DNA from: a virus
Virus record (IMG/VR): IMGVR_UViG_3300023184_009621
Coordinates: 1 to 35,829 of that record
Direction: 5' to 3' (one strand)
Length of the DNA: 35,829 nt
Part shown: piece after piece, positions 2 through 34,617 of the stretch
Layout of the letters: each line of letters starts with the position of its first letter
Position numbering within the stretch: the stretch's first letter is position 1
The notes under the pieces: generated by a model
The model's input: only the letters and a program-made list of their open reading frames with translations
What the model was told of the DNA's origin: nothing
Databases searched by the model: none
Translations under genes and position numbers: made by a program

Positions 2-1426
2 ACGCAAGGTGCTCAAAGCAATCAAGGAAATCAAAGTAATCAAGGAAATCAAGGAAATCAGGGAACACAAGGCACTCAAGGTACACAAGGCACACAAGGT
101 ACACAAGGCACACAAGGCACACAAGGTACTCAAGGTACTCAAGGTACTCAAGGTACTCAGGGTACTCAAGGCACTCAGGGTACTCAAGGCACTCAAGGCA
201 CTCAAGGTACTCAAGGCACTCAAGGCACTCAAGGTACTCAAGGTACTCAAGGTACTCAGGGAACTCAGGGAACTCAGGGTACGCAAGGCACTCAAGGCAC
301 TCAAGGCACTCAAGGTACTCAAGGCACTCAAGGCACTCAAGGTACTCAAGGCACTCAAGGTACTCAAGGAACTCAAGGAACTCAAGGAACTCAAGGCACT
401 CAAGGCACTCAGGGTACTCAGGGCACTCAAGGCACTCAAGGTACTCAAGGTACTCAAGGTACTCAAGGTACTCAAGGTACTCAAGGTACTCAAGGAACTC
501 AAGGAACTCAAGGAACTCAAGGCACTCAAGGCACACAAGGAACTCAGGGTACTCAGGGCACTCAAGGCACTCAAGGTACTCAAGGCACTCAAGGCACTCA
601 AGGTACTCAAGGTACTCAAGGTACTCAAGGTACTCAAGGTACTCAAGGAACTCAGGGAACTCAGGGTACGCAAGGAACTCAGGGTACGCAAGGTACTCAG
701 GGTACGCAAGGTACTCAGGGTACGCAAGGCACTCAGGGTACGCAAGGTACTCAAGGTACGCAAGGTACTCAAGGTACTCAAGGTACTCAAGGAACTCAGG
801 GTACGCAAGGCACTCAGGGTACGCAAGGCACTCAGGGTACGCAAGGTACTCAGGGTACTCAGGGTACTCAAGGAACTCAGGGTACGCAAGGTACTCAAGG
901 AACTCAAGGAACTCAGGGTACGCAAGGTACTCAAGGAACTCAGGGTACGCAAGGTACTCAAGGAACTCAGGGTACGCAAGGAACTCAGGGAGGATGTGAT
1001 CCTTTATACCCTACTACTGGTCCTCACACAATAGAACTGCATTATACTGGATGTGGTTTAGTGCCAAATTTATCTGGATGGTTTAGTTTTACAGCAGTTG
1101 GAAGTGGTACATTATCATTATTGAAAACTTCAAGTCCTTGTGGAGAGTTAACAGGATATATTAACGGAGAGGGACAAACCGTAATACTAAATGATTGTGA
1201 CACAGTTTTAGTTTCAATAGACATACCAGATACAAATGAATGTTGTTTCTGTTGCCCTTATCAAACAGTTGTGACACTTAGCGATCACTGTGGTGGCGGG
1301 GATGTTGATCCTTGTGGATCTAGTTTAAGAATAGCAAAAACATCATCTGGAAAATTTATAACTGTAAATAAAAAAGCTCTTATATCAAGAGTGAAAAAAA
1401 CAATTCGTTATATTTCCAAGGATTGA
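2..1426 (+). CDS. Collagen-like (Gly-Thr-Gln) fibre protein, 5'-truncated
   Basis: The frame is open from the window edge (first whole codon at base 2) to TGA at 1424. Bases 8-988 encode 109 triplets, almost all Gly-Thr-Gln, with a few Gly-Asn-Gln or Gly-Ala-Gln and two near the left edge where Ser replaces Gly. A tip of about 145 residues follows, with ten cysteines including a CCFCC cluster, and a basic tail. Gly-X-Y repeats form collagen-like triple helices, which phages use in tail fibres and other virion fibres. Thr-rich collagen stalks can be O-glycosylated (BclA of Bacillus spores is the known bacterial case), and this window is rich in sugar transferases; that link is inference. The true start lies left of the window. 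The stop overlaps the convergent helicase gene by 19 bases. Confidence 0.85.
   Translation, partial: TQGAQSNQGNQSNQGNQGNQGTQGTQGTQGTQGTQGTQGTQGTQGTQGTQGTQGTQGTQGTQGTQGTQGTQGTQGTQGTQGTQGTQGTQGTQGTQGTQGTQGTQGTQGTQGTQGTQGTQGTQGTQGTQGTQGTQGTQGTQGTQGTQGTQGTQGTQGTQGTQGTQGTQGTQGTQGTQGTQGTQGTQGTQGTQGTQGTQGTQGTQGTQGTQGTQGTQGTQGTQGTQGTQGTQGTQGTQGTQGTQGTQGTQGTQGTQGTQGTQGTQGTQGTQGTQGTQGTQGTQGTQGTQGTQGTQGTQGTQGTQGTQGTQGTQGTQGTQGTQGTQGTQGTQGGCDPLYPTTGPHTIELHYTGCGLVPNLSGWFSFTAVGSGTLSLLKTSSPCGELTGYINGEGQTVILNDCDTVLVSIDIPDTNECCFCCPYQTVVTLSDHCGGGDVDPCGSSLRIAKTSSGKFITVNKKALISRVKKTIRYISKD
8..988 (+). repeat. 109 x 9-base tandem array coding Gly-Thr-Gln
   Basis: Nine-base units of the form GGN-AC(T/A/G)-CA(A/G) run without interruption. 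Variants (ggt, ggc, gga, ggg; act, aca, acg) form longer blocks: the roughly ten-unit segment at 361-456 recurs at 487-590 with one extra unit, which indicates past segmental duplication. Such arrays change length easily by slippage or recombination, so the copy number here may differ between isolates or assemblies. Confidence 0.9.
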
Positions 1427-5372: not shown

Positions 5373-6434
5373 CTATATACGGTATTCTTCACCAAATATA
5401 GATTGTTCTGAATCATCAATCAGTTCATTAGTAACAAAATCTAAACTATAATTATTTTTAAAACAAGTAATAGGAGCATTATTTATAAGGTCGCTAATTT
5501 GTTGTTGGGCTACTCGACGAACAGCATAGCTCATTACCCCATTTTGAAAAACTTGCTGACAATTTAAATATAATCTTTCCAAAAACCATGATCTAACTTG
5601 TTCCAATCCGGGGGATAAATTACAAGAACCATCAAAACCCAAAAATCGAAAGACTTCTTTTGGATCAAGCCAACAATATCCTGACCAACAATCGCCGGGG
5701 TAATATGAATTTGGCATTCCAGTTTTTAAAGCACGCTCAACAAAATGCAGCATTAAACGAATATAATTCTTGGCATCCCAAGCATCAATGCAACAATCTG
5801 AATCCATAATACGAAATTCAAGAGTTTTACGCTTATTATTGTAATAATGATATGTATTTATAGTGTAATACTTACAGACACCCAACTTACGAATCAAATT
5901 TTCACTTGAGTAAAAATCATCTTCAACCCGCTGAAATATTTCGGATTGTCCAAGTAATTGACAATATTGATTGCGTTTACGAGTAGAAGGAACAGAATCC
6001 ATAAAAACAGGTTCACATTTGACCCACCATGTGACAATACTGTTTAAATCATTATCATTTAAATCTGATACATCGACATGAACATGAAAAGAACAGCGAT
6101 CATCAACATTGATTTGTGAATTACCTAAAACATCAATAACACGACATGTCTCCATAAGACCATGCCATCCTTTAAGGACTGGAGTGCAAATCTCTATTCC
6201 ACAACTAGAATCAGGTTTAATGATCCAAGACATGTTGTTGTGATCATATGCCCATTTGTGTATTTTCACTGCTTTGCCTGAAGCTTTATAAACCAGATTG
6301 GCTATTTCATGTATGCCTTCTGGTAAATTGCCATTCACTGCAGGGCGATTTCTAAGGTCAAAAGCATTAACTTCAATTTCAGCACCAAAACGACGCAAGT
6401 ATTTGCAATCAAGATTTTCCTTGCCTGCGTCCAT
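5373..6434 (-). CDS. Amidoligase (COOH-NH2 ligase) family protein
   Basis: 353 residues. The ATG at 6434 is chosen because GGAGG lies seven bases before it; the frame runs on to 6494 without such a site. Motifs of the amidoligase family related to glutamine synthetase are visible: FGAEIEV (16-22), KPDSSCGIEICTPVL (73-87), CSFHVHVDV (114-122) and TLEFRIMD (204-211). These carry the acidic and His residues used for Mg-ATP binding. The family is predicted to join a carboxylate and an amine using ATP, in peptide or metabolite modification, sometimes in phages. The substrate here is unknown. Transcription is likely from the divergent promoter at 6451-6479. Confidence 0.85.
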   Translation of the reverse strand: MDAGKENLDCKYLRRFGAEIEVNAFDLRNRPAVNGNLPEGIHEIANLVYKASGKAVKIHKWAYDHNNMSWIIKPDSSCGIEICTPVLKGWHGLMETCRVIDVLGNSQINVDDRCSFHVHVDVSDLNDNDLNSIVTWWVKCEPVFMDSVPSTRKRNQYCQLLGQSEIFQRVEDDFYSSENLIRKLGVCKYYTINTYHYYNNKRKTLEFRIMDSDCCIDAWDAKNYIRLMLHFVERALKTGMPNSYYPGDCWSGYCWLDPKEVFRFLGFDGSCNLSPGLEQVRSWFLERLYLNCQQVFQNGVMSYAVRRVAQQQISDLINNAPITCFKNNYSLDFVTNELIDDSEQSIFGEEYRI

Positions 6435-6450
6435 AATGCCTCCACAACAT

Positions 6451-6479
6451 ATTATAGATGAATAACTAAAAACTGGCAA
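6451..6479 (-). promoter_or_regulatory. Sigma70-like promoter for the amidoligase operon
   Basis: Minus strand: TTGCCA (6479-6474), 17-base spacer, TATAAT (6456-6451). The ATG at 6434 and its GGAGG site lie immediately downstream. The -35 physically overlaps that of the plus-strand promoter. Confidence 0.75.
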
Positions 6480-6501
6480 AGTAAAGAGTTGCATCTATAA
6501 T
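6473..6501 (+). promoter_or_regulatory. Sigma70-like promoter for the 6529-8015 operon
   Basis: Plus strand: CTGGCA (6473-6478), 17-base spacer, TATAAT (6496-6501), 28 bases before the ATG at 6529. Together with the minus-strand promoter it forms a symmetric unit flanked by a perfect 10-bp inverted repeat, ATTATAGATG (6451-6460) and CATCTATAAT (6492-6501). Confidence 0.7.
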
Positions 6502-12441: not shown

Positions 12442-13281
12442 ATGTCTGACCTACATATTTATTGTGAAACTGGAGCTATTGGTGATATTGCTATTAGCAT
12501 ATGCCGATCACACATAGCAATGGAAGCATGGGGACACACCAAAACGATAATTCATACATCACCCATTTTTCGATATGGAAATCCACCCCAAGATAAACCT
12601 TATAACTCTGATTGCATTACTATTCTTCAACACTGCAACTTTATAAAAGACATTGTTTTTGAATGCGAACACGATAAACCTGAAACCATCCAAATAAGCA
12701 AAAAATATAAATGCCAGATTACCCAACCTATCATTTATAGGGAAAAACAAAACATATTAGATTGGATAAACCTTAAAAATTTTTTACCAAAAGAAGAATT
12801 CAAAGGCAAAGTTGCAATATTTCATCCCGTAAGTCTTGCCAACAAGCCTTCAAAGCATCTTGATGATTATATTCCTGAATGGGATCGATGTATTAAAACA
12901 CTTATACAAAATGGATTCACCATTGTTATGGTAGGTGGCGAAAATGATCCAATACATCTTACCATGAAAAAAACAACGATAGAAAAAATAAACAATAAAA
13001 TAGGATTATGGTCACAATTAGAATCCTTGGCCTTTCTTTTATATCGAGCAGATGTAGTTGTCTCCTGTGATAGTTGGGGAGCAATTTGGGGACCAGCAGC
13101 ACGCATTCCTTCTGCTATTGCGTGGGGATATCGTATGGAAAACAACATAGATTGGTGGGTGACAGGATTTATAGGCAACAAAGATTGTTATAAATATTCA
13201 TGGTCATCACAAAAAGACTACTGCGATGTAGATCTTGCTAACTACCTTGGAAGATTGAACATAAAGGAACGCCATGTCTGA
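12442..13281 (+). CDS. GT9/heptosyltransferase-like glycosyltransferase
   Basis: 279 residues, GT-B type. The N-terminal segment GAIGDIAISICRSHIA matches the G-x-x-GD-x-x loop of GT9 enzymes. FTIVMVGGENDP starts the second Rossmann half, and VVSCDSWGAIWGPAARIPSAIAWG corresponds to the conserved D-(S/T)-G-x-x-H-x-A donor-site region, with Trp-Gly replacing Gly-x-x-His. GT9 enzymes transfer heptose or related sugars from ADP- or other nucleotide donors. The acceptor is unknown. It overlaps the galactopyranose mutase gene by eight bases, so the two are co-expressed. Confidence 0.72.
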   Translation: MSDLHIYCETGAIGDIAISICRSHIAMEAWGHTKTIIHTSPIFRYGNPPQDKPYNSDCITILQHCNFIKDIVFECEHDKPETIQISKKYKCQITQPIIYREKQNILDWINLKNFLPKEEFKGKVAIFHPVSLANKPSKHLDDYIPEWDRCIKTLIQNGFTIVMVGGENDPIHLTMKKTTIEKINNKIGLWSQLESLAFLLYRADVVVSCDSWGAIWGPAARIPSAIAWGYRMENNIDWWVTGFIGNKDCYKYSWSSQKDYCDVDLANYLGRLNIKERHV

Positions 13282-14407
13282 ATATAATTTTCTTGTAATT
13301 GGAGCAGGCTTTTTTGGATCTACATTTGCAAGAATGGTTAAAGATGCAGGAAAAACTGTTCTTGTAATTGACAAAAATCCCCACATAGCTGGAGCGTCTT
13401 ATGACCGTCGAATCAAAAACATTCTTGTAAACGACTATGGAGCACATATATTTCACACGCATAGCGAAGATGTATGGGCATTTGTTAATCGATTTACAAC
13501 GATGGATCCATTTATCAACAAACCTAAAGTAATATCAAAAAAAGGTGTTTTCAGCTTTCCTATAAACATGATGACATTACATCAATTATGGGGAGTAATA
13601 ACCCCAGAAGAAGCTTTCAATGAACTTCAAAAAAGAAGAATTCCATGTGCAAATCCTCGTAATTTTGAAGAATGGGCATTAGATCGTGTAGGTAAAGAGT
13701 TGTATGAATTATTCTTTTATGGATATACAAAAAAACAATGGATGAAAGAGCCAAGCCAGCTTCCATCATCAATTATCCAAAGACTACCAATTAGGTTAAC
13801 TTATGAAGAAAATTACTTTACAACACAATATCAAGGTGTGCCTCGTAATGGATACACTAACACAATTCAAAACATGCTTGATGATATTCCAGTAGAATTA
13901 GGCGTCGATTTTTTCGCAATGCGAGACAAATGGTCAAACATAGCCGATCATATTGTTTATACTGGGCCAATAGACAAGTTTTTTAATTATGAATATGGAG
14001 AGTTAGAATACAACACATTGCGCTTTGAACACAAAGAATATGCCGGAGATCAACAAGGCAATGCGGTATTTAATTGGGTCGATGAATCTGTACCATACAT
14101 AAGAAGCATTGAATATCGTCATTTTTACGAAAGAAAAATCACAAAACACTATGATCAAAAATCATTTGATTATAGCCCAACCATAGTAACTTATGATTTT
14201 CCCGTTGCCTTTAAAGATCATCCCGAACCTTATTATCCAATAAGAGATTTTAAAAACAGTGAATTACACAACAAATACACGCAATTAAAAACGGCTACAA
14301 GTAAAATTACATTTGGAGGGCGTCTGGGTGAATATAAATACCTCGACATGGATCAAACCATGGCATCAGCAATGGTAAAAGCAAGGACATTGTTAGGAAT
14401 AAAATAG
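13274..14407 (+). CDS. glf: UDP-galactopyranose mutase
   Basis: 377 residues, close to the usual length. The FAD dinucleotide site is VIGAGFFGSTFA (8-19), and ASYDRRI with DYGAHIFHTHSEDVW are typical Glf segments. GYTKKQWMKEPSQLP, LTYEENYFTTQYQGVP, VYTGPIDKFFNYEYG and GGRLGEYKYLDMDQ all match conserved Glf positions, including the Arg that holds the UDP-sugar. The enzyme converts UDP-galactopyranose to UDP-galactofuranose, using reduced FAD. The product feeds galactofuranosyltransferases, so one of the nearby transferases may be Galf-specific. Galactofuranose is used in bacterial surface polymers. Overlap with the GT9 gene shows an operon. Confidence 0.95.
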   Translation: MSEYNFLVIGAGFFGSTFARMVKDAGKTVLVIDKNPHIAGASYDRRIKNILVNDYGAHIFHTHSEDVWAFVNRFTTMDPFINKPKVISKKGVFSFPINMMTLHQLWGVITPEEAFNELQKRRIPCANPRNFEEWALDRVGKELYELFFYGYTKKQWMKEPSQLPSSIIQRLPIRLTYEENYFTTQYQGVPRNGYTNTIQNMLDDIPVELGVDFFAMRDKWSNIADHIVYTGPIDKFFNYEYGELEYNTLRFEHKEYAGDQQGNAVFNWVDESVPYIRSIEYRHFYERKITKHYDQKSFDYSPTIVTYDFPVAFKDHPEPYYPIRDFKNSELHNKYTQLKTATSKITFGGRLGEYKYLDMDQTMASAMVKARTLLGIK

Positions 14408-20596: not shown

Positions 20597-21916
20597 TTAT
20601 TCTTTATGGCCTATAGGCTTGAGATCATTAAGATTTCTGCCAGCACGGCAAGTAACCTTCATGCACAATCCGGGACTAAGTCTTGATTCTGCTGTAAGAA
20701 CCTTGTGACAAATGCTGTATATTTGCTTCCAATTATCTTTTTTAGCATACACGACATACCCGTCATGAACAGTATAAGCGATATCAGCCTTTTTATACAA
20801 AGCCACATGTAGGTCTATAAGTTTTTCTAAACACAAAGTAGCTGCGGGTGATTGAACAGCAAAATTCCTAGCAAGATATTCTTTACCAGCATCGAAATTG
20901 GCCCGACGACGCCCAAAAACATCTTGAGCAAATCCGTGTTCACGAACCATAGACTCACATTGTGTTACAAAGACTAAAGAGGCTCGAAACGAAGAACTAA
21001 TTCGTTCCACTACCAATTCAGCCAAGTCGATTGCAACCCCACAACGCTGTGATAGCGCACGGGCCGACTGTCCATATATAGTCGGCAAAAAACATTTTTT
21101 TGCGAAATCCCTATCTTGTAAACCTTGAGATTTTTGACCTGTCAATTTTTCATATAACGCCGAATAAACATCAGACTTAACATACATTTCACTTAAACCT
21201 ACATCTTTACTTAAGTGAGCTAAAACTGCTACTTCCATGCCTTTAAAATCAAAAGACATAAATAATTGATCTTGACGCAAAGGCTTTAAAACCGCCTTTA
21301 TTTGGTCTCCCATAGCATGAGGCACATAACCTTTATCAAAAGCTTTTGTGCAAAGCAAACGACCATTTTGCTGTCCCTCAATGTCATAACAAGCATGCAC
21401 TTTAGCTTGTATTTCAACATCAAGAATTCCTATTGATTCCAAATGAGGCAAAACCGTCGTTAAAAGCGGTAAATGAATATTTTTGTATATTGGCTCAGAT
21501 TGACGCCAATAATCGTTTTTAATGAGGTTTTTGAGCCTCTGAAGGGCTTCTGCTAAATTTTTTGGAGCAACCGTCTTTAAACCGCTGTAATTTTCTAAAA
21601 CCTTAAAATCAATAATTGCACCATTTACTTCATATGATTTGCCAGTTTTGAAACGAATATATGTGGATAGAGCTTTCCAATTCCAAGTCAATATTTTCCA
21701 GCCTTTTGAAAAGATTGATATACTGAGCATGCTGGAGATAATAGGCAAAGTTTCATCTTTTAAAACAAGTATTATTTCATGACCTTCTTTGCCACTAATA
21801 ATCAACTCATTACTCGCATTTTTATCAGTAAAATCAAGAATTTCGGGTCTACAGGTCACAAGAACACTGTTCCCCTCAAATTGATTCAATGCTTCAGCCA
21901 AATCGTTGTAATTCAC
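20597..21916 (-). CDS. Family A DNA polymerase, compact, exonuclease-degenerate
   Basis: 439 residues. Motif A is SFDFKGMEVAVLAHLS (221-236, catalytic D223). Motif B is RDFAKKCFLPTIYG (269-282; R269, K273, Y281). RNFAVQSPAA precedes motif C, AYTVHDGYVVY (VHDG 383-386), where most family members have HDE, so the Glu is replaced by Gly. The first 170 residues have the outline of a 3'-5' exonuclease domain (WKILTWNWKALSTY, GAIIDFKVLENYSGLK) but lack the usual D-x-E acids. Proofreading may come from the separate DnaQ-like exonuclease at 28431. The start is GTG at 21916, with AGGA upstream and a good promoter at 21938-21966. Confidence 0.9.
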   Translation of the reverse strand: MNYNDLAEALNQFEGNSVLVTCRPEILDFTDKNASNELIISGKEGHEIILVLKDETLPIISSMLSISIFSKGWKILTWNWKALSTYIRFKTGKSYEVNGAIIDFKVLENYSGLKTVAPKNLAEALQRLKNLIKNDYWRQSEPIYKNIHLPLLTTVLPHLESIGILDVEIQAKVHACYDIEGQQNGRLLCTKAFDKGYVPHAMGDQIKAVLKPLRQDQLFMSFDFKGMEVAVLAHLSKDVGLSEMYVKSDVYSALYEKLTGQKSQGLQDRDFAKKCFLPTIYGQSARALSQRCGVAIDLAELVVERISSSFRASLVFVTQCESMVREHGFAQDVFGRRRANFDAGKEYLARNFAVQSPAATLCLEKLIDLHVALYKKADIAYTVHDGYVVYAKKDNWKQIYSICHKVLTAESRLSPGLCMKVTCRAGRNLNDLKPIGHKE

Positions 21917-21937
21917 AGAGTTTTCCTAAATGATCCC

Positions 21938-21966
21938 ATTATGCCCTAAAACAAAAAGAACATCAA
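21938..21966 (-). promoter_or_regulatory. Sigma70-like promoter for the polymerase operon
   Basis: Minus strand: TTGATG (21966-21961), 17-base spacer, CATAAT (21943-21938), 21 bases before the GTG at 21916. It lies outside the structured region that starts near 22023. Confidence 0.65.
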
Positions 21967-22022
21967 GAAAACTTTAACATATTTCAATTTAAAATTCTGG
22001 TTGTACAATCATAATTTATAAC

Positions 22023-22529
22023 GGGATGCAGACTCAAGTTGTCCTTATGCGTTAAGAAAAGAATAATTACTTTTCTTAGATAAGTTTGATTTTGTTTGAG
22101 CAAACTCAGTGTTTAAACTTTGTACGCTCACGGATAATTATTTTTAGGTAATTATCGTGTAACCAAAATCAAATTACCCCGCATAAAACACTTTAAGTGT
22201 TGCGGTTTAGTGTACTTTTTTTTGCCGACATCCTAAAGCTGTTTAGTCCTAACCCATGCTCCAAGGTAGGATTCTGCAATTTTTCTAAACAGCCATGACC
22301 TAATCGGCTGCGAGTAACAATGCCTCCCGTAGCGGCATTCGATTGTAGCAATCTACAAAGACTCACCCTGTCAAGGGCCTCGCAGGTTTAACAATTAACC
22401 ACCTCTGGCAGTACAAAGCCTTTAGTGAATCAATGGGAGCAAAAGAGTGCCCTTCTCAGTACTTTTTAGTGAGAGCAAGATGCCTAAAGCTTTATCCACA
22501 TCTAAAAGACATGGGGCTAAAGTGCATGT
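22023..22529. ncRNA. Large, multi-helix structured RNA (about 500 nt)
   Basis: No credible gene lies here, but perfect helices are packed end to end: GGGATG/CATCCT (22023-22028, 22229-22234, one G-U), TTATGCG/CGCATAA (22045-22051, 22180-22186), a 9-bp hairpin 22053-22078, a 10-bp stem 22085-22094/22164-22173 enclosing an 8-bp hairpin 22133-22156, a hairpin 22187-22201, GCTGTTTAG/CTAAACAGC (22238-22246, 22285-22293) enclosing TCCTA/TAGGA, and CTGCGAG/CTCGCAG (22308-22314, 22379-22385) closing a junction of three hairpins (22319-22339, 22343-22358, 22366-22377). More hairpins follow at 22385-22400, 22454-22474, 22478-22503 and 22509-22529. Nesting and junctions suggest a folded RNA comparable in size with the phage GOLLD and ROOL classes, though I see no diagnostic match. 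Strand is undecided. Confidence 0.65.
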
Positions 22530-22595
22530 AATAATACTAACAATTTTTTGCAACGAGTCAATTCAAATGTTTAATAAAATGATTCAAAAATGCCT

Positions 22596-22623
22596 TTGCA
22601 TTTTAAATTTATTTGTTTATACT
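22596..22623 (+). promoter_or_regulatory. Sigma70-like promoter for the PD-(D/E)XK-like gene
   Basis: TTGCAT (22596-22601), 16-base spacer, TATACT (22618-22623), then AAAAGGAG before the ATG at 22656. The gene therefore does not depend on transcription through the structured RNA. Confidence 0.6.
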
Positions 22624-22655
22624 TTTAAAAATTCAAATGATAAAAGGAGTTATCA

Positions 22656-23210
22656 ATGTCAGAGCCAGTTATCATCAACACAAATGAAGATATGCTCAAC
22701 TATGCTTTTAAGCAAGCCCAAAAAATGGGAGCTATACGCAATTCAATAAGAAAAGGCAAAGGTAATTATGCAGGTTTTGTTGGCGAAGCTGCTGTCCGTC
22801 AATTTTTTGGCTTCCCTTTAGAATTAAATCAAAACACATATAATTTTGATATTATTTTTGATAATACAACATATGATATCAAATCAAAACAAACTACTGT
22901 TGTTCCAAAGCCTGATTATGAAGTTAGTGTATGTGACAAAAATACATTTCAAGACTGCTCAGCTTATCTATTTTCACGAGTTTATTGGCCAAGTCATTCA
23001 GAAGATCCTTTAAAAGTTTATCTTGTAGGTTGGTATCCAAAAAATATTTATTATGAAAAAGCTGTATTTTGCTCAAAAGGTGGCCGAAGTCTATCTAATA
23101 CAAATGATTTTGTAGTTAAAGAAGATTGTTGGAATATGTATCACAAAGATTTATTAGATGTAAGAGACATTTTAAGTCGTGCTAGGTCGGTAAGCCAAAG
23201 TTCTTTATAA
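22656..23210 (+). CDS. PD-(D/E)XK nuclease-like protein
   Basis: 184 residues; AAGGAG site upstream. GFVGEAAVRQFFG (Glu44) followed by YNFDIIFDNTTYDIKSKQT (Asp65, Asp74-Ile-Lys76) matches the E...D...(D/E)-x-K order of the restriction-endonuclease fold. The rest (LFSRVYWPS, KVYLVGWYPK) reads as core strands. Phages use such nucleases for host DNA breakdown, recombination or RNA/DNA processing. It is the first gene beside the structured RNA, so a functional link could be tested. Its last 29 bases overlap the convergent glycosyltransferase gene. Confidence 0.65.
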   Translation: MSEPVIINTNEDMLNYAFKQAQKMGAIRNSIRKGKGNYAGFVGEAAVRQFFGFPLELNQNTYNFDIIFDNTTYDIKSKQTTVVPKPDYEVSVCDKNTFQDCSAYLFSRVYWPSHSEDPLKVYLVGWYPKNIYYEKAVFCSKGGRSLSNTNDFVVKEDCWNMYHKDLLDVRDILSRARSVSQSSL

Positions 23211-26379: not shown

Positions 26380-26670
26380 ATGACAGATATTTCTTTTAAA
26401 TTATGGCTTGAATCCAAAGAGAAGGATTTTGAGTTTTATAAAAATTTGGTTCTTGGAAAGCTTAATTTAGATGGTACTGAGGGATTATCGGCAACTTTGA
26501 ATACTTGGAAGCCAGAAGGTCTTCAGCAAATTCTGCAAGGCTTGGGAGAGTTTAAAGCCTTGCCAGAAGCAATTCAAAAACAAGTTTTTGGAAAGATTGA
26601 TAGTGGTAGTGGAACTTTAGCAGATATCATTAGAATGATGGCTTCTCAAGCACAAAACATAAAATCTTAA
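26380..26670 (+). CDS. Small protein with capsid-targeting-like N terminus
   Basis: 96 residues. MTDISFKLWLESKEKDFEFY begins with the same F-K-x-W-L-x-x-x-E pattern as the divergent gene at 26329. The rest is helical, with a repeated-looking LQQILQGLGEFKALPEAIQKQVFGKI and a tail TLADIIRMMASQAQ. The ribosome site is weak (GTGGGA). It is a good candidate for a small internal head protein, judging by size and N terminus, but unproven. Its stop overlaps the convergent glycosyltransferase by four bases. Confidence 0.6.
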   Translation: MTDISFKLWLESKEKDFEFYKNLVLGKLNLDGTEGLSATLNTWKPEGLQQILQGLGEFKALPEAIQKQVFGKIDSGSGTLADIIRMMASQAQNIKS

Positions 26671-27728
26671 TCAATTAAATCAAGTATAGAAGAAGCCATA
26701 TGTGCCCATGTTTTTTGAGTCATAGTTTTTGCCCCTTCTGTGCCTAACTTAGAAAGTTTAGAACGATTGTTGTAAGCCCACTCAAGATTTTCTAAAATGC
26801 TTTCAGAACTAGGTTCTTCCCAAATGCTTATTTCTTTACCATTTTCTTGAAGAGAACAAGCACCAAGAGATTCAATAATGCGACTATTATTAGGTGTAAG
26901 TAAATCTGCTTGACCTGTACCAATTGTTGCAATAGCTGGTTTTCCGCAAGCCATATATTCCATCATAACGAGATTTGTTCCAGCTTCACATCTAGAAGGA
27001 AAAACTCCAACATCTGTATTTTGATATATGTTTGCCATGCAATTATTCATCATCAAAGGGATGCGAATAACCCTGCTTAAATCAATGTTTGCTTCTTGTA
27101 AATGTTTAAAGCCATCATTTTTAGTATATGAATTTACCCAAGCACACACTAAACGCACATCAGGATGGCGATCTTGAAATGTTTTATAAGCTTTTATAAA
27201 AACATCTTGGCCTTTTCGATGTTCAAATTTACCGCCTGAAAAAACCACAAAATCATCTATAAAAACTTCTTTTTTTTTGTGGTTTTTGTTAAAAATAAAA
27301 GGATCAACGCCCTGATGTATGACAATTGATTCTACTCCATATTTCTTTAGAAGATTCTTGCTCCATTCTGATCCAGCAATAATATAATCAAAGTTAGCTC
27401 TAGCTTTTTGAGCTAAATCTTCAGGTATGAAACGATCAGAAAAGCATAGTCCTATTTTTTTTGATCCTTTTAAATAACCTTGATATGGTTGAAGATCGTG
27501 TTCTAGAGATTGAATGATAGGATAATCGTTTTGATTTTTAAGATATTCAATATTATCTAATCTATATTTTTTAAAGAATTCTGATTCTATTGGATTTGCC
27601 CCAGAGTTTAAATCAAATTCAGTAGAAAAATATCTAATTTGTTGTTTTTTACTTATTTGTTTTGCTAAATTTATGCTGCAATTACCCCAGCCTGAATGAT
27701 AGTTGTATGGCAAAACAAGAAAAATCAT
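26667..27728 (-). CDS. GT4-type (GT-B) glycosyltransferase
   Basis: 353 residues. The N-terminal half has YHSGWGNCSINLAK, a Gly-rich acceptor loop. FSGGKFEHRKGQDVFIKAY (163-181) is the hinge strand and phosphate-binding region with the usual R-K-G. DVGVFPSRCEAGTNLVMMEYMACGKPAIA is the donor site, with E-A-G-x-x-x-x-x-M-E in the place of the E-x7-E motif. The enzyme should transfer a sugar from a nucleotide donor with retention. It starts on an ATGA overlap with the upstream virion-type gene, which suggests joint expression. Confidence 0.85.
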   Translation of the reverse strand: MIFLVLPYNYHSGWGNCSINLAKQISKKQQIRYFSTEFDLNSGANPIESEFFKKYRLDNIEYLKNQNDYPIIQSLEHDLQPYQGYLKGSKKIGLCFSDRFIPEDLAQKARANFDYIIAGSEWSKNLLKKYGVESIVIHQGVDPFIFNKNHKKKEVFIDDFVVFSGGKFEHRKGQDVFIKAYKTFQDRHPDVRLVCAWVNSYTKNDGFKHLQEANIDLSRVIRIPLMMNNCMANIYQNTDVGVFPSRCEAGTNLVMMEYMACGKPAIATIGTGQADLLTPNNSRIIESLGACSLQENGKEISIWEEPSSESILENLEWAYNNRSKLSKLGTEGAKTMTQKTWAHMASSILDLID

Positions 27729-30962: not shown

Positions 30963-32585
30963 TTAAATTTTAGTTAGTTCAACAATCAAACTTATGTCTG
31001 GCAGCATATCAAATGTTTCTTTAATGATTTGGGGATGTCCATCGCCAAACGATTTTCTTTCAATTTTAAATCCTGTTGAATCAGCCATAAATTTTAATGA
31101 TTCATAATCATATGCTGTTCGGTGGCCTTCGAAAAGAATTGACCATAATTTAATTGATTGTGAAGAATAAGCAGCACATCCATCATTGATTTCATCAAAA
31201 ACACTAAGTTCATTCTTTTTATAAAGATCAATTAGTTTTTCGGTATCTGGAACAAGTATTCTGATAACTGCTCCATTTTTCATAGCAACATGTAAATTAC
31301 GCAAAAATAAGAGGCCTTCAGGTACAGTCAAGTGTTCCAGCATATGGCTAGAATAAGCTAAATCAATTGTATTAGGTTTAAATGGAAGAGCACCACGAGC
31401 ATCAAATGGAATATATTTGTATTTGTGTAGATCAGCAAATTTTTGCAAATCTATATTATCAAGATTGACCCATCCATCGTGAAACATATTGATGAAGCTG
31501 CCAAAATTAACTTTTAATTTTCCATCACCAATAGGAATGCTTTGAATTAAATTGCCTTTTTCTAGCTCTTCTTTATCAATAATTTTATGACCGTCTGGAA
31601 AACGACTTGTCCACCAATCTAGTGTTTTGAGTGTGCAGTGTGTTTTGTCAAATCCGTCATCTTTTTCGCCAAAATCAATTCCATGAAGGCCACGCTTAGT
31701 TATTCGCTTTAATTCATTAAATATGGCAGGAAGATATTCTTCTGGAATGTGTTCAAAAACTGCAATAGAAAACGCCAAATCAAATTCTTTATCCTTGAAT
31801 GGCCAAGGTGTTTGGCAAATATCAAATTCAACCACATCATCAGTTACCCTTGTCATTTGACAATGATGAGAAATTTCAATTCCCTTACTTCTAATTCCCA
31901 TGCCATTTAATCGTTTGACAATATATCCTCGTGCTGCTCCTATTTCTAAAACAGATTCTGGATGTTCATTAAGAATGTGTTGAAGCGTGACCCAATGAAC
32001 AGGATAATCCCAATATCCTTCATAAGCATAACCTCCAACTTTAGACCCGCCATTAAAGTAATGTTTGTCAAAAAGCTGTTTGCGGTCTTCGGTGTTTTTG
32101 CTTGCTTCAATGATCATATCTGTTCCTAATTGTCCGTGAGGCAAAGTGATTATATTAGAAAACCCAGCCTCAGTGAGAAGCTTTATTGCGTATTCTGGAC
32201 TTAAACTATTACGATGGGTATTTTCATCATAATTTTGATCTCCAAAAATAATTGATGAAGAATCATCATTCCATTCTTCTTGTTCAAGCACCCATTTCAT
32301 TTGGCTTTTAGTGTTGGCCGTAACGAATACGGCTTTGCCTTTATTTTTCAAGATACGATACACTTCTTTTAAAAAAGATCTTACATTTCTCCATGATATG
32401 TGTTCAATGCAATAGCTGCTAAATACACCGTCATATTCATTATCTTGAAGTGGTAATTCTTTGTTGAAATCTGCAACAATATCAATATTAGGTCCGTTTC
32501 TAACATCTAAATTTGGACGAAAATATGGATTATCTCCACCGCCCAATTCAATAACTTTACCTTTAAAGGGGAAATTATAATTCAC
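30963..32585 (-). CDS. Protein with three methyltransferase-like domains
   Basis: 540 residues, GTG start with AAGGA eight bases upstream. Domain 1 (about 8-160): VIELGGGDNP, YDGVFSSYCIEHI and an AVFVTAN strand. Domain 2 (about 205-340): VLEIGAARGY, KGIEIS, FDLAFSIAVFEHIP. Domain 3 (about 356-540): KLKVNFGSFINMF with GWVNLDNID, IDLAYSSHMLEHL and IRILVPDTEKL; here the usual L-G-C-G loop is degraded to N-F-G-S. Domains of this kind are common beside sugar and O-antigen genes. The third may bind poorly or serve structure. It overlaps the next gene by 11 bases, in a run with three glycosyltransferases, so it may cap or methylate the glycan they make. Confidence 0.85.
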   Translation of the reverse strand: MNYNFPFKGKVIELGGGDNPYFRPNLDVRNGPNIDIVADFNKELPLQDNEYDGVFSSYCIEHISWRNVRSFLKEVYRILKNKGKAVFVTANTKSQMKWVLEQEEWNDDSSSIIFGDQNYDENTHRNSLSPEYAIKLLTEAGFSNIITLPHGQLGTDMIIEASKNTEDRKQLFDKHYFNGGSKVGGYAYEGYWDYPVHWVTLQHILNEHPESVLEIGAARGYIVKRLNGMGIRSKGIEISHHCQMTRVTDDVVEFDICQTPWPFKDKEFDLAFSIAVFEHIPEEYLPAIFNELKRITKRGLHGIDFGEKDDGFDKTHCTLKTLDWWTSRFPDGHKIIDKEELEKGNLIQSIPIGDGKLKVNFGSFINMFHDGWVNLDNIDLQKFADLHKYKYIPFDARGALPFKPNTIDLAYSSHMLEHLTVPEGLLFLRNLHVAMKNGAVIRILVPDTEKLIDLYKKNELSVFDEINDGCAAYSSQSIKLWSILFEGHRTAYDYESLKFMADSTGFKIERKSFGDGHPQIIKETFDMLPDISLIVELTKI

Positions 32586-33582
32586 TTAGTAATTCCTTCC
32601 ATGTATCTGTATACAAATTTCTAACTCTTTCCCAAGAGTAATTATTGCTCCAATCATGAAGCTCTTGAGCGTTATTGAATGTGGTGGATTTATAGTCTTC
32701 GATTGCTTGAGCTATTGCTTTGAAATTCCTTTTAGGAACGATTTTACAATCGTTGTTTAAACAATCAATTGCTCCAACTCCATCTGAGGCAATAACAGGT
32801 CTTCCATATGACATCGCCTCAAGAACTTCAATCCCAAATCCTTCAGTAACACTTGGTTGAATATAGACATTGATTGATTGAAAAAAATGTTCAATATTTT
32901 TTACAAATCCAAGAATTATGTAATTTCCAACATCATATTGTCGAATTAAATGAATCAATTCTGGCGATTGAATACCTGCTAAATAAAGAACGGAATCTTT
33001 ATAATTAAGTTTTGCCCAAGCTTCTATGAGATATCGCACCCCTTTATCTGGACCAATTTGACCTAGATAACCAACTGCAAATTTTTTGGGAGCAGGTAAA
33101 ACATAACCATTTTTACAGCCATGTGGAATTATGGATACTCTATTGCACCCAAATTCATGCATAATATTTTTACTATGTTTGCTTGGACATATAACAAGAT
33201 CGGCATTTCTGTAACTGACTAAATATTTTTGAAGTATTTCAGGATTGGTTAAATGAGGGAAATCATAAGGAATGTTATTCTTTTCAAATTCTTCCCTACT
33301 TAGCTTGATGTCATGTGCTGCTGCTGTGTAAGTTATTTTTACACCTTGAGCTTTGAGTTTTTCGGTAAGTCTAGGAAATGTTCCTGAATAAAAATGGGCT
33401 AGTTTGTATTTGCTGTAATCTTCATTTGGCAAAAGTTGGTCTGGTAAAAATGGATTTTGACTTGGTTCAGGATTGATAATATCAACATGACCAAGAGATT
33501 TGAGTGCTGTTAATTCGTTACTCGTAACAGCACCGCCACCTGTTTTTGATCCAATTCTATCACAAGTTACATAGAGAAACAT
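32575..33582 (-). CDS. GT4-type (GT-B) glycosyltransferase
   Basis: 335 residues, beginning directly after the upstream stop (TAA-ATG), AGGTGG seven bases before. KTGGGAVTSNELTALKSLG is the N-terminal acceptor loop. VGYLGQIGPDKGVRYLIEAW holds the G-x-x-x-x-x-K-G phosphate-binding region. YIQPSVTEGFGIEVLEAMSYGRPVIAS carries the E-x7-E motif (E-G-F-G-I-E-V-L-E) intact. This is a complete GT4 and probably active. Sugar and acceptor are unknown. Confidence 0.9.
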   Translation of the reverse strand: MFLYVTCDRIGSKTGGGAVTSNELTALKSLGHVDIINPEPSQNPFLPDQLLPNEDYSKYKLAHFYSGTFPRLTEKLKAQGVKITYTAAAHDIKLSREEFEKNNIPYDFPHLTNPEILQKYLVSYRNADLVICPSKHSKNIMHEFGCNRVSIIPHGCKNGYVLPAPKKFAVGYLGQIGPDKGVRYLIEAWAKLNYKDSVLYLAGIQSPELIHLIRQYDVGNYIILGFVKNIEHFFQSINVYIQPSVTEGFGIEVLEAMSYGRPVIASDGVGAIDCLNNDCKIVPKRNFKAIAQAIEDYKSTTFNNAQELHDWSNNYSWERVRNLYTDTWKELLSEL

Positions 33583-34617
33583 TTACCAACCACCTGTTTC
33601 AATAGCTTCATAGCAAAGTTCTTCATATCGATTGACCATATTCTCAAAGCTAAATTGTTGAGCCCATTCGATGCATCGTTTGGGATTTATTGTTGAAACA
33701 GAATCACTTTTTATAAGTTCTTCCATTTCTTCTTGACTATCAACAAGAAACCCTGTTTCTTTGTCTTTTATTGTTTCTTTACAAGCACCGTTTCTCCATG
33801 CAATAACAGGCATGCCACAAAGCTGAGCTTCAACTGGAGCAAGACCGAATGGCTCACGGAAAAGTTTATTTGGATGAAGCATGGCTTTATTTGTATTAAA
33901 CCAACCAACACATTCATCACGATTTTGATGACCAACATATCTTAAGTTTGGCGAAAGAGAACATGCTGCTTTTACTTGAGCAAGAAGTTGTGGTTCTCCT
34001 GTAATCCTATCGTCTCCAATTAGATCAAGATCAATTTTACACTTGTTTGCAACATCTACGGCAATATGTGGTCCTTTGATGGTGCTAATTCTAGCCAAGA
34101 AAAGCCAACGATTGTTTCTTTTATAATTAAGATTTTTATAAAAGTTAACATCAACACCGTTATAAGAAACTCTTGAATCACAATTTAAATGTTCCTTACA
34201 TCCTTCTGACTGGTCTTTCGATATGCAAACAAAAGTTGGCTTAGGAACAGGAGGGATAGACATGTACATTGTGTTTACTGGAGCGTGTAAAACACCAAGA
34301 ATTGGAGTAGAAATTTTTCCTTCGACCTTAAGAATATAACTCCATTTTTCCCAACTATGATCGATAACTGCATCAAATTCTGCAAGCTTTGACCAATATC
34401 CTGAATAAGCTGCTTTTTCAGGTTCGTTTAATGTGGTTTCATGAAGCGTACAATTTGTTTTTGAACCTTGTGGTGCCACAAGTGTCACATCGTGACCTTT
34501 GGATTTTAATCCCTCAGCTACTTGCCAAGCAATCATTTCAAGGCCAGAATATCCTACTGGAGGACAAGGCAAAACCGTAGTTGAAATAACACAGATTTTT
34601 AATTTATTGTTTTTCAT
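33583..34617 (-). CDS. GT4-type (GT-B) glycosyltransferase
   Basis: 344 residues; GGAG nine bases before the ATG. PPVGYSGLEMIAWQVAEGLKSKGHDVTLVAP is cut here only for description: it is the N-terminal loop with the G-G-like turn. WLFLARISTIKGPHIAVD gives the hinge strand with K-G. FREPFGLAPVEAQLCGMPVIAW has the E-P-F-G-L-A-x-V-E donor motif (E-x7-E) intact. It overlaps the GT2-type gene by four bases (ATGA) and abuts the next GT4, so all three sugar enzymes are made together. Confidence 0.9.
   Translation of the reverse strand: MKNNKLKICVISTTVLPCPPVGYSGLEMIAWQVAEGLKSKGHDVTLVAPQGSKTNCTLHETTLNEPEKAAYSGYWSKLAEFDAVIDHSWEKWSYILKVEGKISTPILGVLHAPVNTMYMSIPPVPKPTFVCISKDQSEGCKEHLNCDSRVSYNGVDVNFYKNLNYKRNNRWLFLARISTIKGPHIAVDVANKCKIDLDLIGDDRITGEPQLLAQVKAACSLSPNLRYVGHQNRDECVGWFNTNKAMLHPNKLFREPFGLAPVEAQLCGMPVIAWRNGACKETIKDKETGFLVDSQEEMEELIKSDSVSTINPKRCIEWAQQFSFENMVNRYEELCYEAIETGGW

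Follow-up and report, generated by a model that had tools for sequence, protein, structure and literature searches.

In a group of metagenomic phages that includes the source of the 35,829-nt huge-phage fragment analysed here in its entirety (the window), a non-coding RNA that evolves rapidly and has a conserved, pseudoknotted fold is encoded just upstream of the gene for a Pol I-type DNA polymerase, on the polymerase strand and in single copy. This RNA is a candidate origin element for huge phages, and it comes with a concrete and testable context, namely an adjoining Pol I-type gene and a GC skew switch, repeated across diverged phages.

The RNA lies in a gap of 739 bases (21917-22655) between the polymerase gene and a 184-aa gene. 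The longest stop-to-stop frame within the window RNA has 64 codons, and the similarity among homologues in the RNA regions consists of short pieces across all six frames, i.e., it is similarity at the nucleotide level; the absence of a credible gene, noted in the initial annotation of this DNA, was borne out. The conclusion that the region 21917-22655 is non-coding and holds a real, conserved structured RNA holds. The features of the locus are as follows.

20597..21916, minus strand: family A (Pol I type) DNA polymerase, 439 aa (Pfam DNA_pol_A, 5e-29; PDB profile matches to Taq and Bst Pol I)
21964..22013, minus strand: AT-rich stretch, candidate unwinding element, directly past the RNA 3' end (78% A+T against 60% in the RNA)
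22018..22527, minus strand: predicted structured RNA, 5' end at about 22527 and 3' end at about 22018 (promoter, 3' motif, strand counts, fold z and homologues)
RNA 3' end, minus strand: conserved 3' motif GUCUGCAUCCCG, marking the predicted 3' end
22534..22561, minus strand: predicted RNA promoter, TTGACT, 16 nt, TAGTAT with TG before it (-35 at 22561-22556, -10 at 22539-22534)
22656..23210, plus strand: 184-aa gene, divergent neighbour of the RNA gap

The label of nuclease given earlier to the 184-aa gene is unconfirmed, as the protein has no Pfam, PHROGs or credible PDB match and its AlphaFold model has a pLDDT of 36. The gene is absent at the RNA locus in the other lineages that were examined; its place is taken there by a different gene that is co-directional (295 aa in L012) or by a divergent one. 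A YDIKSKQ stretch in its sequence could suit a PD-(D/E)XK nuclease. The window as a whole carries replication and nucleotide genes, including those for a DnaB-like helicase, UvsX, SSB and an exonuclease. Additionally, a repeat-rich ORF (9-1034, plus strand) aligns with a related locus, L012, at many different offsets, a pattern that points to tandem peptide repeats, and amidoligase, UDP-galactopyranose mutase and several glycosyltransferase genes (5373-6494, minus; 13274-14407, plus; 26667-27728, minus; 32575-34617, minus) form a surface-sugar modification set in this phage record.

Three sets of 18, 51 and 80 loci, which overlap in part of their contigs, were obtained by polymerase searches of public viral contigs, and one further locus came from a genome bin labelled Neisseriaceae. 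About 16 distinct lineages of phages known from metagenomes have colinear blocks directly upstream of the same family A polymerase gene, on contigs of up to 225 kb, with weaker matches in 381- and 62-kb records. The covariance model R1, built from the alignment A3 of the 99-nt core, matches these loci at E 1e-15 to 6e-28 and, more weakly, L039 (8.7e-6) and L151 (0.0024). All of its strong matches adjoin the polymerase gene, each of seven records (69-225 kb) with an R1 match in a whole-record search has one copy, and pattern scans for copies away from the polymerase gene returned the known loci only. A DNA search of phage records gave no match, scans with the 184-aa and 311-aa neighbours gave no relatives, and the one full-length polymerase relative obtained by protein search, from a 595-kb uncultured phage, has no such RNA in the 900 nt upstream of its polymerase gene.

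In more distant polymerase relatives, the corresponding position is again taken by a long stretch poor in coding sequence (roughly 600-900 nt); its sequence is a different one, conserved and apparently structured, that has diverged too far for R1 to recognise. Six of the polymerase relatives, forming group IV (L176, L177, L178, L182, L184 and L187), share among themselves a conserved gap of about 500 non-coding nt upstream of the polymerase gene. Its sequence differs from that of the RNA (e.g., CCATGTAACCAGATAGT), and between this gap and the polymerase gene lies a small ORF for a basic protein. Another conserved long gap of different sequence, not recognised by R1, is shared by L028, L029, L037 and L154; G004, the long record belonging to this group, has the skew step described below as well.

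The elements of the predicted fold have the following positions, all of them on the minus strand of the window.

22407..22420: 5' hairpin E, stem 22407-22409/22418-22420, whose loop UGUACU (22410-22415) pairs with 22211-22216 to form P1
22295..22393: core domain recognised by R1 (98.8 bits, E 1.2e-27) and covarying in A3; it contains the conserved strand GUCUUUGUAG
22298-22301/22384-22387 and 22310-22314/22379-22383: core helices J0 and J1, closing the junction
22319-22339, 22341-22353 and 22366-22377: core hairpins inside the J0/J1 junction
22224..22308: C domain, helix P2 (22224-22228/22304-22308) around stem C1 (22238-22246/22285-22293), with many double changes in helices 9, 10 and 12 of alignment A7
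22273..22278: 5' strand of pseudoknot PK2, UGCAGA in the C-domain bulge, pairing with 22027-22032
22211..22216: 3' strand of the long-range helix P1 (columns 199/472 of the group I alignment)
22045..22186: 3' domain (A7 helices 14-16), in which stem D (22045-22051/22180-22186) encloses stem B1 (22085-22094/22164-22173) and hairpin A (22054-22061/22070-22077)
near 22111-22118: conserved GUUUAA hairpin in stem B1
22027..22032: 3' strand of PK2 at the RNA 3' end, conserved in alignments A5 and A6

Read from 5' to 3' along the RNA, hairpin E with its loop in P1 is thus followed by the three-hairpin junction closed by J0 and J1, the P2/C domain and the 3' domain, and the C-domain bulge reaches to the 3' end through PK2. 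Since J0 crosses P2 and P1 crosses PK2, the fold is pseudoknotted, the pseudoknots being made by three long-range helices (P1, P2 and PK2). Both nested arrangements described in the initial annotation are present, i.e., the 7-bp stem D around the 10-bp stem B1, and a 7-bp stem (22308-22314/22379-22385) closing three hairpins.

In the core alignment A3, comprising 14 lineages, 97.6% of the cells are paired, double changes occur in 13 of the 21 pairs against 7.3 in shuffles, and covariation reaches 0.495 against 0.168, a value attained by none of 500 shuffles; sliding one partner by one column lowers the pairing to 36-49%. Very few wobble pairs occur in the core. The whole-RNA alignment A7 of five relatives, with 99 pairs, is 95.1% paired and has double changes in 29 pairs against 10.2 in shuffles, again with none of 500 as good. 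Among the long-range elements, P1 covaries through UGUACU/AGUACA (window), CGUACU/AGUACG, CGCACU/AGUGCG, GAUACC/GGUAUC and AGUAUC/GAUACU, and PK2 appears in relatives as CUGA/UCAG, CAGA/UCUG and CCGA/UCGG, the states in other lineages having been read by eye from the alignments. The strong covariation among homologues, together with a fold z beyond that of all 100 shuffles, supported the large folded RNA that had been proposed from the window alone.

The direction of transcription was judged from a hand-defined structure on five well-aligned relatives, in which the A7 helices, read on the polymerase strand, contain 23 G.U and 5 A.C departures from Watson-Crick pairing. The opposite strand would reverse these counts, which argues for transcription of the RNA in the polymerase direction; an automatic helix search on A5 and A6 gave ambiguous G.T/A.C totals owing to misaligned rows and was not used for this purpose. 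The fold z of the window is -3.78 on the minus strand and -2.95 on the plus strand (for each strand, none of 100 shuffles did as well), and that of homologue L040 is -7.10 on the polymerase strand against -4.85 on the other. On these counts, and with near-consensus sigma-70 promoters at the 5' end, the predicted RNA is on the minus strand, co-directional with the polymerase gene. A plus-strand reading, with conserved TACAAT/TATACT-like boxes left of the RNA taken as a possible promoter, was also considered and was ruled out by the wobble counts, the fold z and the position of the consensus promoters at the opposite end.

These promoters stand in the relatives at the same position as in the window; the sequences are TTGACA-17-TATAAT (perfect) in L021, TTGACA-16-TATAAT (perfect boxes) in L040, TTGACA-16-TAGAAT in L022 and TTGACT-17-TACAAT in L038. 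In these four relatives, the sole strong promoter on the polymerase strand precedes the RNA, and no intrinsic terminator was found between the RNA and the polymerase gene in the 18 lineages with a located RNA 3' end. This evidence leaves doubtful the earlier view that each flanking gene is served by a promoter of its own lying outside the RNA. From the predicted start to the 3' motif, the RNA measures about 420-510 nt in the relatives, the window included, and the 50 nt that follow it have 70-88% A+T in eight relatives, against 47-65% in their RNAs.

The GC skew switches sign near the RNA locus in long records, and it does so also at third codon positions within genes of one strand. In the test applied, a regression modelled third-position skew by gene strand and a step term, and the step obtained for the RNA position was ranked against all positions of the same record; the polymerase gene and its gap served to locate the site in G004, G008, G012, G015, G016 and G019, as R1 fails on diverged sequence. 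The strand-corrected skew turns upward at the locus, and the step ranks high in eight of the 11 long records (at 30 kb: G008.011, G016.011, G003.029, G017.036, G004.042, G012.042, G009.054 and G001.10), with no step in the other three (G010, G015 and G019). The combined Fisher p is 1.9e-4 at 20 kb, 4.5e-5 at 30 kb and 2.9e-5 at 50 kb. The same test was flat at uvsX (ten records, 8-25 kb away; p 0.28-0.59) and at the terminase gene (three records; p above 0.9), and in G017 and G008 the raw cumulative skew reaches its minimum no more than 1 kb from the RNA. Bidirectional-type skew has been reported for approximately 30% of huge phages (PMC7162821). Given the skew upturn in most long relatives (shown STATISTICALLY), the locus is probably a replication origin, placed at a resolution of kilobases, at which the origin could be any element near the polymerase gene. 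In G013, the record behind L168, an RNase HI gene (204671-205114) lies directly upstream of the polymerase gene (205881); the search for RNase HI covered seven further records and gave no match in any of them.

A promoter, a folded RNA, an AT-rich stretch and a Pol I-type gene, in this order, make up the layout of a transcription-primed origin, and for this reason an origin RNA is proposed, i.e., an R-loop primer or origin switch with a layout like that of ColE1 RNA II; we regard this proposal as quite possible, though short of probable. That the RNA itself would act at the origin we infer from the locus and the layout. According to this scheme, host sigma-70 RNA polymerase would transcribe the RNA early, from the RNA's own promoter, and the RNA would fold while emerging. 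The transcript would then enter the AT-rich stretch downstream and form, or permit, an R-loop that opens the origin, and the R-loop transcript, once cut, would serve as a primer for the Pol I-type polymerase encoded next to it. The fold of the RNA would decide whether the hybrid forms, and read-through would also yield polymerase mRNA, coupling origin firing to polymerase synthesis. No phage RNase H was found in the RNA-bearing records searched, so the primer model needs the host enzyme, and weak DnaG-like primase matches in some relatives mean that the RNA primer would not be obligatory. Also counting against the origin-RNA reading are the skew step of G013, which has no RNA gap, the three of eleven records that show no step, and the commonness of AT-rich spacers upstream of genes. 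The broader claim, that this is a new class of large structured RNA defining the origin of a widespread huge-phage lineage, with the fold controlling R-loop formation and priming by the phage Pol I-type polymerase, is a rather doubtful possibility; if it is true, origin firing in these viruses would be run by an RNA machine.

Two other readings are serious rivals to the origin RNA, each of them rather unlikely when taken singly. The RNA may serve in cis as the 5' leader of the polymerase mRNA and regulate the synthesis of the polymerase by autoregulation or ligand sensing, as would suit its position, always directly upstream of the polymerase gene on the same strand, and the sole strong promoter before it in L021, L040, L022 and L038 with no terminator between. 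However, the spacer between the RNA and the polymerase gene varies from about 50 to 228 nt, with neither length nor sequence conserved among 18 spacers, and across these spacers no expression platform (a terminator or sequestered ribosome binding site) is conserved, nor is any element at the ribosome binding site of the polymerase gene. Moreover, the small ORF of the group IV relatives intervenes between gap and gene, and a pseudoknotted fold of this length is far larger than known leaders.

The RNA could also be an independent, trans-acting ornate RNA of the GOLLD/ROOL kind, serving as a scaffold, a cage or a binder of host factors and placed beside the polymerase gene for early expression. 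Its size and complexity, the pseudoknots, the occurrence in phages and the strong promoter of its own are in keeping with this, and GOLLD and ROOL do make RNA-only cages (PMC12286853). The search of Rfam 15 (4227 families) at gathering thresholds, however, gave no match in the whole window or in 16 related loci, and permissive thresholds gave irrelevant weak matches only, in the window region and the relatives; GOLLD and ROOL were not among the matches up to E 10 (region) or E 1 (six loci). No Rfam match was obtained to group I/II introns, RNase P RNA or tmRNA either (the latter also by ARAGORN), and, in agreement with the initial annotation, no tRNA cluster is present, with 0 tRNAs in the window and 0 in 18 related loci. 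The resemblance to GOLLD and ROOL drawn there therefore stands for size and complexity, but not for sequence or for the vicinity of tRNAs, which are near no copy. The trans-acting reading, in addition, leaves the strict linkage to the polymerase gene and to the skew switch unexplained, and no terminator was found between the RNA and the polymerase gene. No earlier description of the RNA was found in the literature, subscription papers and preprints being outside the coverage. With no Rfam match, tRNA islands, reverse transcriptase, intron or RNase P match, or prior description, the RNA class is almost certainly new, as had been suggested.

It is improbable that the neighbouring polymerase binds the RNA as its dedicated cofactor or template, in the way that reverse transcriptases use retron or DRT ncRNAs: strict same-strand adjacency in about 16 lineages would suit such a role, but the polymerase has an ordinary family A palm/fingers domain and is not a reverse transcriptase, and polymerase relatives without the RNA gap exist (L168, L190 and L193). 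Slightly less credible still is a folded single-stranded DNA or cruciform at the origin, with which the coincidence with the skew switch and the scarcity of wobble pairs in the core would agree, whereas the 23:5 wobble asymmetry between strands, the asymmetry in folding energy and the consensus promoter at the 5' end are expected for RNA only. Chance hairpins in AT-rich intergenic DNA, a thought invited by a region of 60% A+T in which single short hairpins are common, are refuted by covariation in 14 lineages unmatched in 500 shuffles and by the collapse of pairing upon a one-column slide; the L040 fold z of -7.1 also counts against them.

Large structured RNAs are rare, and, to our knowledge, replication initiation in huge phages is largely unstudied and the functions of the phage GOLLD and ROOL RNAs remain unknown. 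Even if the origin role fails, an uncatalogued RNA fold in many phage lineages stands, and its relatives provide a deep natural alignment for work on RNA structure and function.

Among known systems, retron and DRT ncRNAs are likewise structured RNAs encoded immediately before a polymerase gene and in its direction, but the neighbour here is a family A DNA polymerase instead of a reverse transcriptase, and the RNA is much larger. GOLLD and ROOL (PMC12286853) are also large, ornate, pseudoknotted phage RNAs; GOLLD members often exceed 800 nt and often lie near tRNA islands, whereas the present RNA, at about 420-510 nt, has no such islands nearby and is strictly tied to the polymerase gene and a putative origin. 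The T4 origins oriF and oriG consist, as proposed here, of a promoter and a downstream A+T-rich unwinding element, with the transcript priming the leading strand from an R-loop (PMC3016281); the minimal T4 origin, however, measures about 100 bp and its R-loop needs no specific sequence, whereas a conserved 420-510-nt fold intervenes here. A further parallel in layout is ColE1 RNA II, a structured RNA of about 550 nt that starts at a sigma-70 promoter 550 bp upstream of the origin, is followed by an AT-rich region, and forms an R-loop priming a Pol I-type polymerase (PMC5043065). A start from its own promoter about 500-550 nt upstream of the origin fits the promoter and length found here, the putative origin being placed from skew of kilobase resolution. 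Unlike RNA II, the present RNA is phage-encoded beside the phage's own polymerase and has a different fold with three long-range pseudoknots; no opposite-strand promoter for an antisense RNA like RNA I is consistently placed among the relatives, and the Rfam search, published families included, gave no relevant match. The likeness is one of layout, the primer role of the present RNA being putative. The class is almost certainly new, but the way in which the RNA works may be one already known, for example a variant of the known R-loop origins.
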